Below are positions 2,100-53,841 of a stretch of 53,841 nt of DNA, piece by piece. The notes under the pieces were generated by a model. It ran no database searches and had not been told where the DNA came from. It worked only from the letters and a program-made list of their open reading frames with translations. The position numbers and the translations under genes are program-made. Origin of the DNA: Acidimicrobiales bacterium (GTDB lineage: Bacteria; Actinomycetota; Acidimicrobiia; Acidimicrobiales; AC-9); assembly GCA_036270875.1 (NCBI GenBank), contig DATBBR010000034.1:1-53841 (forward strand), given 5' to 3'. Within the stretch, counting starts at the first letter, position 1; each line of letters begins with the position of its first letter.

Positions 2100-3476
2100 A
2101 TGGGCGCGCCGGATATCGAAGCGTTGCGGGAGAGCGTTCGCGGCCAAGTCATCACGGCTGACAATGCCGAATATGACGAGGCACGCAGGGTGTACAACGG
2201 CATGATCGACTGTCATCCGCAGGTCGTCGTGTGCTGCGCCGACGTCGGCGATGTGCGCGCCGCGGTCACCCTGGCTGCGGACAGCGGCCTGGACCTGTCG
2301 GTGCGGGGAGGTGGGCACAGCGTTCCGGGCTTCGGCACCAACCACGGTGGGGTGGTCATCGACTTCTCATCGATGAGGGGCGTTCGGGTGGACCCGGCGA
2401 CACAACGTGCCCGCGCCGAGCCCGGCTGCACCTGGGGCGACTTCAACCACGCCACGTACGCCTTCGGCCTGGCCACGACGGGAGGCATCGTCTCGACCAC
2501 AGGGATTGCGGGCCTCACTCTCGGGGGCGGGATCGGCTATCTCGACCGCGGTTTCGGGCTGTCCTGCGACAATCTGGTGTCGGCCGACGTCGTGACTGCC
2601 GACGGCCGGTTTCTCGTCGCCAGCGAGAAAGAGAACGCGGACCTCTTCTGGGCCCTTCGCGGCGGCGGTGGGAACTTCGGGGTCATTACCTCGTTCGAGT
2701 ACCAGCTGCACCCGGTCCAGGACATCTTCGCCGGCATCTTCTTCTATCCGCTCGACCGGACCCGCGACGTGCTCGAGTTCTACCGCGACTACATCACGGA
2801 CGCTCCGGAGGAGATGGGAACGTTCCCCGCCTTCCAGATCGCCCCGCCCCTCCCGTTCATCCCCGAGCAGGAACACGGCAAGACGTTCTGCGCCATGGTG
2901 GCCTGCTGGGCCGGCCCCCTGGACAAGGGTGAGGAGGCGCTCGCTCCCATCCAAAAGGCCGCCCCGACAGTGGCCGAGATGGTGAGCCCGATGCCGTACC
3001 CCGCTCTCAACAGCGCCTTCGACCCGTTGCTACCGCCCGGTCTCCAGCACTACTGGAAGGCGTCGTTCGCCTCCGACCTGACCGACGGTGCCATCCAGGC
3101 CCACCTGGAGCACGGCCCGAAGGTCCCGGCGCTCAGCTCGACGATGCACATCTACCCGATCAACGGTGCCTGTCATCGGGTTCCCTCCGAGGCCACGGCC
3201 TTTGCCTACCGTGATGCGACCTTCGCCACCGTGATCGCCGGCATGTGGCCCGACCCAGCGGACAACGACAACAACATCCAGTGGGTCAAGGGTTACTACA
3301 AGGCTCTCGAGCCGCACTCGGCCCCGGGCGGCTACGTCAACTTCATGGCCGGAGACGACCAGGACCGCATCCGGGACAACTACAAGGGCAACTACGACCG
3401 CCTGGCGTCTATCAAGAAGCAGTACGACCCCGGCAACCTCTTTCGGATGAACCAGAACATCAGCCCGTCCGGTTGA
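2100..3476 (+). CDS. FAD-binding oxidoreductase of the berberine-bridge-enzyme type
   Basis: This 458-residue protein has an N-terminal PCMH-type FAD domain (about 35-205) with RGGGHS, in which His73 is the expected 8-alpha-histidyl FAD attachment residue, and GLTLGGGIGYLDRGFGL further on. The C-terminal BBE motif is YDPGNLFRMNQNI. The second covalent cysteine of bicovalent enzymes is not evident (GIAGLTLGGG at the equivalent place), so single attachment is likely. Family members oxidise alcohols, sugars or alkaloids with O2 or another acceptor; the substrate here is unknown. A Shine-Dalgarno AGGGGG stands about 8 nt before the ATG. No signal peptide is visible. The gene stands alone. Confidence 0.88.
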   Translation: MGAPDIEALRESVRGQVITADNAEYDEARRVYNGMIDCHPQVVVCCADVGDVRAAVTLAADSGLDLSVRGGGHSVPGFGTNHGGVVIDFSSMRGVRVDPATQRARAEPGCTWGDFNHATYAFGLATTGGIVSTTGIAGLTLGGGIGYLDRGFGLSCDNLVSADVVTADGRFLVASEKENADLFWALRGGGGNFGVITSFEYQLHPVQDIFAGIFFYPLDRTRDVLEFYRDYITDAPEEMGTFPAFQIAPPLPFIPEQEHGKTFCAMVACWAGPLDKGEEALAPIQKAAPTVAEMVSPMPYPALNSAFDPLLPPGLQHYWKASFASDLTDGAIQAHLEHGPKVPALSSTMHIYPINGACHRVPSEATAFAYRDATFATVIAGMWPDPADNDNNIQWVKGYYKALEPHSAPGGYVNFMAGDDQDRIRDNYKGNYDRLASIKKQYDPGNLFRMNQNISPSG

Positions 3477-3722
3477 GCAATCTCGCTGGCCCGCCGGGGA
3501 CTGGCACACCCACCTCGCCTGTGCCTCGCGCCCGGTGTTCCGGACTTCGATCCACGGCAGCTCGTAGACCCAACCCCTAGACATCTTCCTCTCGACGTCT
3601 CACCACACGAGCAGGATTGACGCGACTCGAGGGTGAAGTCCTGACTTCCTGGTGTCTTGTCGTCCCTGCCCGGGAATAAGGGACCAGGAGCACGTCGTGG
3701 CTGACCGAGACGAGAGAGACAG

Positions 3723-51865: not shown

Positions 51866-52651
51866 TCAGCCGCCGAACAGCGCAGGCAGCTCGGCCGCCC
51901 GGCCGGCGAGGAACAGGCCGCCGACAGCTAACGACGACACGCCGGTGAGCCCTCCCAGCACCAGCTGGGCCCGCACGGAGCGACGCACACCGACCAGGCC
52001 GGTGAGCCAGGCGGCGGCGATGCCCAGGTCGCTCACGATCAGCCCGGTGACGAAGGCGAGCAGGATGAACATCGCACCGGCGGTCGATCCCGACGCCGCG
52101 GCGCTGGCGAAGAGGACCACCTGGGTCGGCGTCTCGGCGCCGGTCCCGTGGAGCACGCCGACGGCGAAGGCGGAGCGGGGCCCCAGGTCATCGAGCGCGC
52201 CCGCGGGCGGAGTCCCGCGACGCCTGGCACGCGACCACGCCCGGCGGACGATGCCGACCAGGAGCTTCACTCGGCCGGCGTAGCGGTACTCGCCGCGGTC
52301 CCGACCTAGCTGCCACAGCACGAAGGCCCCCAGTGCGACCAACGTGGCGCCGACGACGCCCTCGAAGATCCGATCGATGCCTGCGGGGAGGCCGACCCCG
52401 AGGACGCCGACGACAGCGCCCAGGGCGGCGATGACGAGCCCGTGGCCGATGCAGTACCAGAGGGCGAGGCTGACGGTGCGGCCGTTCCGACCCGTGCGGC
52501 GAGCACCCGAGGCGCCCGCCGGCGCGTTGGCGGTGGTGAGGTCGGTGATGGCGGCGAGATGGTCCCAGTCGAGCCCGTGGCGGCACCCGAGGAGGAAGCC
52601 GGTGCCGCCAATGGACAGCGTGGGCCAGGACAGCAGGGAGTGCGCGGCCAC
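51866..52651 (-). CDS. NicO/HoxN-like nickel/cobalt transport protein under a B12 riboswitch
   Basis: 261 residues with about six hydrophobic helices. The first helix carries GCRHGLDWDHLAAITDL, the HX4DH metal motif of NiCoT/NicO permeases. GVLHGTGAETPTQVVLFASA in the middle repeats an H-x-x-GAE/TPTQ-type motif. The upstream leader contains a probable cobalamin riboswitch, so cobalt import for B12 synthesis is the best reading. The GTG is chosen because it has GGAAGCGAGA upstream and lies just after the riboswitch; the longer in-frame ATG form would overlap the RNA element. Confidence 0.83.
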   Translation of the reverse strand: MAAHSLLSWPTLSIGGTGFLLGCRHGLDWDHLAAITDLTTANAPAGASGARRTGRNGRTVSLALWYCIGHGLVIAALGAVVGVLGVGLPAGIDRIFEGVVGATLVALGAFVLWQLGRDRGEYRYAGRVKLLVGIVRRAWSRARRRGTPPAGALDDLGPRSAFAVGVLHGTGAETPTQVVLFASAAASGSTAGAMFILLAFVTGLIVSDLGIAAAWLTGLVGVRRSVRAQLVLGGLTGVSSLAVGGLFLAGRAAELPALFGG

Positions 52652-52689
52652 GGCGTCTCGCTTCCGACGTGATGTCGAACGGGGCTGTG

Positions 52690-52800
52690 GGGGTCCCACC
52701 GCCGGCCTTCTGGCTCCCGCCCGAAAGCGGGCGGCTACAGGAGTGCTGACTGCGCCGGACTCGCACCGGACTTGCCCGGGCGGCGGGTTGCGCCGACCCT
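52690..52800 (-). ncRNA. cobalamin (B12) riboswitch
   Basis: Read on the minus strand, the leader holds AAGTCCGGTGCGAGTCCGGC, the typical CCGGTGCGAATCCGGC helix P5/P6 core. This is followed by GCAGTC and GCACTCCTGTAGCC (a variant of the CCACTGT segment), a perfect 7-bp hairpin CCGCCCG-CTTT-CGGGCGG, and a B12-box-like AGCCAGAAGGCCGGC. CCGCCG near the 5' end can pair with CGGCGG after the B12 box to close P1/P2. It precedes a nickel/cobalt permease gene by about 40 nt. High B12 should switch the transporter off. Boundaries are approximate. Confidence 0.82.
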
Positions 52801-52801: not shown

Positions 52802-52864
52802 TCCCAACTGGGGCCGCGTCCTGGACGTCCGGGCGCGGCGCCGAAACGCCTCAGTAACGAACGC

Positions 52865-52902
52865 GTCAGCGTTTCGTCAGAAACCGGTCAGCTCATCGTC
52901 AG
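52865..52902 (+). promoter_or_regulatory. four GTCAG direct repeats at exact 11-bp spacing
   Basis: GTCAG occurs at 52865, 52876, 52887 and 52898, each preceded by C or G. An 11-bp step places all boxes on one face of DNA, as in the tandem sites of OmpR/PhoB/PhoP-type response regulators. It lies about 100 bp upstream of the MprF-like gene and about 70 bp from the promoter of the opposite metal permease. Confidence 0.6.
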
Positions 52903-53004
52903 GTCTGGGCGAGATCATGGCGGAGCCCGCAGTCCGCCGACGGAGCCGACGGGAACATTCAGTCCTGGACGCCGAAGCGGCGTTCCCTGGGGGGAGGAGG
53001 ACCA

Positions 53005-53841
53005 ATGAAGACCGCGGTCATGTACGCCGGCTCAGTGGCCGCGACCTACCGGGTGCAGCGGAGAGTCGCCCGACCTGCGCCGCACCCTGTCGACAGTCCG
53101 GGCACTATCGCCTCCCTCGCCGAGGCGGCCGTGGCCCACTGGGGCCGGAGCTCGGCCAGCCCGTTTCTCGTCGGCGCCGACCGCCGGGTGATCAGGGTGG
53201 GCGCCGGCGCCGCCGGGTGGGTGCGCCAGGGTCGATGGGCGGTGCTGGCCACCGACGTGGCGGCGCCCGTCGATGCAGCCGAGGCGGCGCTGGACGAGCT
53301 GTTGGAGGTGCTCGCGGGCGAGCGTCTCCGACCGGTGTTCGCCTGCGTGGCAGATCCCGAGCCCTACCGGAGGCGCGGGATGCACGCGGTTCCCATCGCC
53401 GACGACGCCGTGGTCGATCTCGGCTCCTTTTCCCTGGCGGGACCTCGCCGGGCAAAAGTCCGCCACAGCCTGAACGCCGCCCGCCGAGCGGGCATCGCCG
53501 TCGTCCCCTTCACGAACGACCTCGCCGACGGGACGGCCGCCGTCTCGGCGGCCTGGCTGGCGACCAAGCGTGGCGGCGAGATGGGGTTCACCCTGGGCCG
53601 CTTCGATGCCGAGGAGCTCGACCGGGTCGACTGTCGGGTCGCGGTCGACGCCGGAGGGCGGGTCGTCGGGTTCGTGAGCTGGCACCGCTACGACGACGGG
53701 CGGGCCCGGGTGCTCGACCTGATGCGCCGAGCCCCCGATGCCCCATACGCCACCATTGATGCCCTCATTGCCGAGAGCCTGATCGGCTTCGGAGACGCCG
53801 GAGTCGAGCGGGCCAGCCTCGCATGCGTGCCCGTGGGCAGG
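53005..53841 (+). CDS. MprF-like DUF2156 protein (phosphatidylglycerol lysyltransferase C-domain), 3' end outside window
   Basis: 279 residues are visible and the frame is still open at the window edge. The sequence matches the DUF2156/MprF synthase domain: FLVGADRRVIRVGAG, FACVADPEPYRRRGMHAVPI, RRAKVRHSLNAARRAGIAVV, TKRGGEMGFTLGRFDAEELD, VVGFVSWHRYDDGRARVLDL and MRRAPDAPYATIDALIAES. Members transfer an amino acid (Lys or other) from aminoacyl-tRNA to a lipid or similar acceptor with a GNAT-like fold. No transmembrane flippase part precedes it, so it is a stand-alone synthase. GGGGGGAGGAGG lies about 5 nt before the ATG. The 11-bp repeats upstream suggest response-regulator control. Confidence 0.78.
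   Translation, partial: MKTAVMYAGSVAATYRVQRRVARPAPHPVDSPGTIASLAEAAVAHWGRSSASPFLVGADRRVIRVGAGAAGWVRQGRWAVLATDVAAPVDAAEAALDELLEVLAGERLRPVFACVADPEPYRRRGMHAVPIADDAVVDLGSFSLAGPRRAKVRHSLNAARRAGIAVVPFTNDLADGTAAVSAAWLATKRGGEMGFTLGRFDAEELDRVDCRVAVDAGGRVVGFVSWHRYDDGRARVLDLMRRAPDAPYATIDALIAESLIGFGDAGVERASLACVPVGR

Follow-up and report, generated by a model that had tools for sequence, protein, structure and literature searches.

Tandem Operators with an 11-bp Period

PhoB of E. coli binds head to tail to boxes that each contain two 11-bp direct-repeat units (PMC4415409), and it activates via σ70 at promoters in which the box takes the place of the −35 element (as stated in PMC3413638). The sequence upstream of pstS in E. 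coli, read from genome records, is GTCAT-N6-GTCAT-N6-TACAT-N6-GTCAC-N10-TATTTT. PhoP of Mtb is described with boxes of the form TCACAGC-N4-TCACAGC and with a direct repeat at phoP itself (ACTGTTAGC). On suitable repeats it can bind as trimers and tetramers (PMC4832192), and a class II placement has been proposed at lipF and pks2 (PMC4832192, PMC3413638). ArcA of E. coli, also of the OmpR/PhoB family, has sites of three to five direct repeats at 11-bp spacing (PMC3798270), and the afs box of the SARP AfsR has 11-bp repeats that overlap the −35 region beside a weak −10 (PMC10936776).

The window considered here, by which we mean the whole 53,841-nucleotide stretch of DNA that was analyzed, is contig C34 of a genome of 3.0 Mb in 155 contigs (G000), and it was compared with two congeneric genomes (G001 and G002), giving a genus sample of three. 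It contains four GTCAG boxes in a tandem array that has the same geometry as the pstS promoter, namely four direct-repeat units of 11 bp that have GTCA at their core, a step of 10 bp to the −10, and no −35, but the full core is NCGTCAG here and CTGTCAT there, and the targets of the array are not phosphate genes. With the Mtb PhoP boxes it shares the 11-bp period, the CAG/YAGC end of the unit, and the strict 4-bp spacer, and it differs from them in having four units rather than two or three. The activator sites of ArcA have no fixed promoter position, whereas the array is fixed to the base. The SARP sites differ in comprising two repeats that obey an 8-bp rule and in their cognate protein, which has a BTAD and does not belong to the response regulators.

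The combination of 11-bp repeats with an array that replaces the −35 and is set at a constant distance from the −10 is that of a class II tandem operator. Judged from these features, the array very probably serves a class II activator promoter, of the OmpR/PhoB type, as its operator. This kind of operator is well known; the regulon described below is new and restricted to the genus. A limited search of the open literature turned up neither the motif nor its uniform build of four units, and neither the pair of regulators nor the regulon.

The Array and Its Promoter

An earlier note on this DNA had placed four perfect pentamers at one-turn spacing at positions 52865–52902, and the coordinates proved exact. 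On the plus strand, GTCAG starts at 52865, 52876, 52887, and 52898, with a period of exactly 11 bp. Box 1 (52865..52869) is kept in the orthologous promoter of G001 (contig C31), box 2 (52876..52880) reads CTCAG there, and boxes 3 (52887..52891) and 4 (52898..52902, the promoter-proximal one) are recognized both from the sequence and from the G001 comparison. One period 5′ of box 1, in the same register and on the same strand, lies a degenerate fifth unit, GTAAC (52854..52858). The array shifted by one unit to include it has two mismatches, and the unit is not conserved in the G001 orthologue. Sites of the GlnR type follow the pattern GTnAC-N6-GAAAC. They were rejected by eye, as every unit here is GTCAG and alternating a/b half-sites are absent.

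A further regularity concerns the −10. When the 19 sites first found in the three genomes by GTCAG alone are aligned on the last box, YANNNT occurs exactly 10 bp past it in 18 and ANNNT in all 19, whereas YANNNT is found at any other offset from 0 to 49 in at most two. Against a background of 0.8%, this gives a P of about 5e-37, a value that counts orthologous sites, which are not independent; about 13 distinct promoters remain, and the result therefore stands. The hexamer of the window, GATCAT (52913..52918, plus strand), lies exactly 10 bp after box 4 and is both the weakest of the 19 and the sole exception to YANNNT; its counterpart in the G001 orthologue is CATGCT. No −35 was found at the usual distance from the −10, that place being occupied by the boxes. 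A reading of GTCAG itself as the −35 of a sigma factor was rejected, the last box being 10 bp and the next box 21 bp from the −10. The predicted start of transcription is 52924..52926 on the plus strand, about 7 bp past the −10, and this position agrees with the short, leaderless ORFs of C24 and C47 in G000, which open at about +22 to +24 relative to the last box.

Downstream of the array lies a gene encoding a stand-alone LPG_synthase_C protein, i.e. the C-terminal synthase domain of MprF (53005..53841, plus strand; PF09924, E = 1.3e-36). Its visible part, 279 amino acids, ends at the edge of the contig; the complete orthologue in G001 has 339 amino acids, is 74% identical, and has an array of its own. 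The gene had been called MprF-like, which holds for the synthase domain but not for the protein as a whole: only this domain matches, the N-terminal flippase is absent, and there is no strong transmembrane segment, so that it is not a full-length MprF. A 22-residue piece with 95% identity to the gene is encoded at G000:C23:1-66, so that C34 and C23 probably adjoin. A paralogue, 62% identical, is found at C102:6566, on a contig in which no array was found.

The intergenic region is divergent, as had been supposed. On the other side lies a gene for a NiCoT-like nickel/cobalt transporter (51866..52699, minus strand), recognized by a weak match to the NicT model. Because the −10 occupies a fixed position beside the array, however, the promoter is directional and faces the LPG_synthase_C gene, not the transporter; the array is more than a site in a shared divergent region. 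The transporter leader (52700..52800, minus strand), a neighbor that lies outside the array, forms a block that differs hardly at all between G000 and G001 and resembles a short cobalamin riboswitch. An Rfam riboswitch search of the window gave no match; in the orthologous leader of G001 (L132:3258-3371) the RF00174 match reached 17.5 bits (E 0.022), under the cut-off of 31.5. The leader is possibly a shortened or variant cobalamin aptamer that would control cobalt uptake.

Candidate Regulators

Among the 13 OmpR-type DNA-binding domains encoded in G000 is that of R1, an OmpR-family response regulator (G000:C155:6087-6776) whose gene has the array directly upstream. Its orthologues in G002 and G001 (87 and 82% identical, respectively) have the array at the same place. 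No array was found upstream of other OmpR-type regulator genes, as judged from the recovered regulators and, by hand, from R2; the genome-wide pattern search agrees by contig. The array adjoining its gene makes autoregulation of R1 likely. The −10 at this locus faces away from R1, toward a divergent small lipoprotein-like gene, and autoregulation would therefore need a second promoter, R1's own, presumably on the other side of the array.

R2 is a paralogue of R1 with 70% identity, encoded at G000:C78 (gene 2968-3636, minus strand, on locus L141). Its gene lies behind a sulfatase-like gene in both G000 and G001, and a GTCAG array is absent upstream of it in G000. Common to R1 and R2 is the recognition helix NVVERHVSALR. 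Of 397 genomes of the order, three contain DNA encoding exactly this helix, and these three belong to this genus; the helix of R1 in G001 and G002 is NVVERHMSALR. The nearest solved relatives of R1 are chains of Mtb PhoP, in the DNA complex of which N212, V213, and E215 contact bases of TCACAGC (PMC4832192). R1 retains the aligned N, V, and E, and at positions 216, 217, and 220 the R1/R2 helix has R, H, and A versus S, Y, and Y in Mtb PhoP.

The boxes had been likened in the earlier note to PHO/PhoP-type operators. The tandem build and the PhoB/pstS geometry largely bear this out. R1, however, is a different protein from the PhoP orthologue, and there is no sign of a Pho regulon among the targets. 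R1 scores 147 bits against the PhoB equivalog model, for which the cut-off is 296, and it is an orphan, with no histidine kinase beside it. Its identity to Mtb PhoP is 39.4%, compared with 58.7% for C32, the true PhoP orthologue of G000, the gene of which has no array. Phosphate genes (pst, phoA, ugp, or others) were not seen at the sites.

That the same class II operator is bound by some other OmpR-type protein, for example C32 or the PhoP-like C79, seems unlikely to us. Both have PhoP-like helices, C32 is close to Mtb PhoP, and the Mtb phoP boxes (ACTGTTAGC, PMC3413638) share GTYAGC with the array units. Neither gene has an array, however, and PhoP-like regulators whose helix reads ETYxSYLRKK are encoded elsewhere in the order too, whereas the arrays and the R1/R2 helix are found in this genus only; a PhoP orthologue as the binder would leave both this restriction and the adjacency of R1 unexplained. 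A SARP-type activator, consisting of a winged helix and a BTAD, is a very improbable binder of the repeats. SARP promoters do have repeats 11 or 22 bp apart, with a suboptimal −10 (CACTGT, for example) at 8 bp from the 3′ repeat (PMC10936776), but the described sites are mostly of two repeats, not four. Furthermore, the 10-bp offset from the pentamer is that of pstS, letter for letter, although the framing of the units makes 8 and 10 bp hard to separate. G000 encodes one BTAD protein (C24:21633), but its gene has no adjoining array, the one on C24 lying 10 kb from it, whereas an array adjoins the R1 gene in three of three genomes. On balance, we favor R1, and perhaps R2 as well, as the protein that binds the arrays, a view that draws on adjacency and co-occurrence.

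Recurrence within the Genus

When the genome was scanned for the tandem motif, a check that the earlier note had proposed, the array was found at five places in G000 beyond the window. Perfect four-box arrays are present at C132 and C155 as well as in the window, those at C24 and C152 have a single mismatch, and the one at C47 has three mismatches; the letter-reversed control pattern gave no match in the whole genome. A sequence-only profile built from the 19 sites first found returned 21 sites of more than 25 bits in the three congeneric genomes (6 in G000, 9 in G001, and 6 in G002), followed by a gap down to 16.5 bits. The period is exactly 11 bp in all 19 of the original sites, and each of the two added by the profile (G001:C193:14763 and G001:C168:49038) has one 10-bp step.

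By order-wide comparison, the arrays are restricted to the genus. Among 59 relatives, several arrays were found only in G001 and G002, and against 195 other genomes of the order the profile reached a maximum of 24.8 bits, the top matches being short-period repeats. Two boxes followed by 10 bp and YANNNT were found as a composite 15 times in the three congeners versus about 40 times in 394 other genomes. The earlier note would have been refuted by a motif that neither recurred nor was conserved in related genomes, and this condition fails, as the motif does recur across the genome and is kept at orthologous promoters within the genus. Beyond the genus, searches of the relatives, with the profile across the order, and for the helix among the 397 genomes found no conservation. 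In five sets of orthologous promoters, 97 of 100 box columns are identical, compared with 53 of 90 in the spacers, 50 of 190 in the 38 bp upstream, and 79 of 210 in the 42 bp downstream.

These results also bear on two explanations that require no regulator. Chance repetition in GC-rich DNA, the improbability of which had already been claimed, is rejected and retains next to no likelihood: a search of the whole window for the four-box pattern with up to three mismatches gave three overlapping matches, all inside the array, where 0.01 was expected (100 dinucleotide shuffles), and the array recurs genome-wide, against zero for the control, and is conserved in the congeners. In the window, two-box matches that include one mismatch are about as frequent as expected by chance, which fits this explanation and means that the signal resides in the four-fold array. 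A mobile or REP-like repeat family that lies upstream of genes by accident, as several similar copies per genome and the alike spacers at C24 and C152 might suggest, is rejected with hardly any probability left to it, since spacers and flanks diverge while the boxes are retained, every copy is placed and oriented identically with respect to a −10, and conserved flanks or ends are absent.

Proposed Mode of Action

From the array, its recurrence and conservation, the fixed −10, and the adjacency of R1, all of which are seen in the sequence, we propose a model in which binding and activation, together with a presumed phosphorylation and its signal, would proceed as follows. A regulator of the OmpR/PhoB family would bind head to tail on one face of the helix, with one subunit per 11-bp GTCAG unit, so that two tandem dimers would fill the four units. 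The most downstream subunit would occupy the −35 position and recruit RNA polymerase with the primary sigma factor, directing it to the weak YANNNT −10 exactly 10 bp downstream, and transcription would then run rightward into the LPG_synthase_C gene. R1 would be the most likely binder, and its paralogue R2, identical in the recognition helix, may use the sites too. The regulon would comprise about six to nine promoters per genome, mostly of genes for secreted proteins, lipoproteins, and membrane proteins.

We regard this model as a whole, i.e. a PhoB-style class II operator with a binder of the OmpR/PhoB family, most likely R1, as likely to be correct. A stricter version, in which R1 and R2 jointly run a genus-specific four-box regulon of envelope and secreted proteins and every promoter obligatorily has two tandem dimers and the fixed 10-bp step, is tentative, and we lean somewhat against it. 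If it were true, the pair would represent an uncharacterized global envelope regulator of this actinobacterial lineage.

Sequence alone reveals here a complete small regulon, including its operator, −10, targets, and candidate regulator, in a lineage that is known through draft genomes, among them a soil MAG. The regulon yields a strong sequence profile, a regulator that can be tested, and a route to the functions of target genes that have no known domain. Bacteria of a distant phylum thus use the geometry of pstS, with four 11-bp units and 10 bp to the −10, on another core sequence and, most likely, under another regulator.

Putative Targets of the Arrays

The genes that lie under the arrays are described here with names that were assigned by eye where no Pfam number is given. 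Two targets are found in all three genomes, the lipoprotein gene divergent from R1 and a gene for a single-TM protein that is followed by one for a Tim44-domain protein (PF04280). Three are found in two genomes, namely LPG_synthase_C (PF09924), a small zinc-ribbon ORF or its HAD-like neighbor, and a very small membrane protein. Targets in single genomes include a membrane-anchored trypsin-like protease (PF13365) with a NagZ-like protein behind it, a TM protein whose gene precedes one for a GH25-like lysozyme, a TPR/TM protein, and unassigned secreted proteins. Most targets have a hydrophobic segment or a signal-like N terminus, and the types of target most readily suggest an envelope or exported-protein response.

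The sites at C24 and C152 in G000 have no obvious long target gene. At C152 (L014, about 1200–1510) there is no clear ORF, and a tRNA-like sequence lies about 240 bp downstream. The leader there resembles those at C168 and C52 of G001, which suggests that the target gene at C152 has decayed. The conserved very small membrane protein, with the core VILALIGSVGFLLAMSVGWSWLEARHE, is encoded directly under the array at G001:C121 and G002:C26, and an ORF of this kind is easily missed in annotation. At C52 of G001, where both neighbors were named by eye from their sequences, a GH25-like lysozyme lies downstream of the array, and upstream and divergent from it is a gene for a secreted protein like the G1 (eqolisin-type) acid peptidases.
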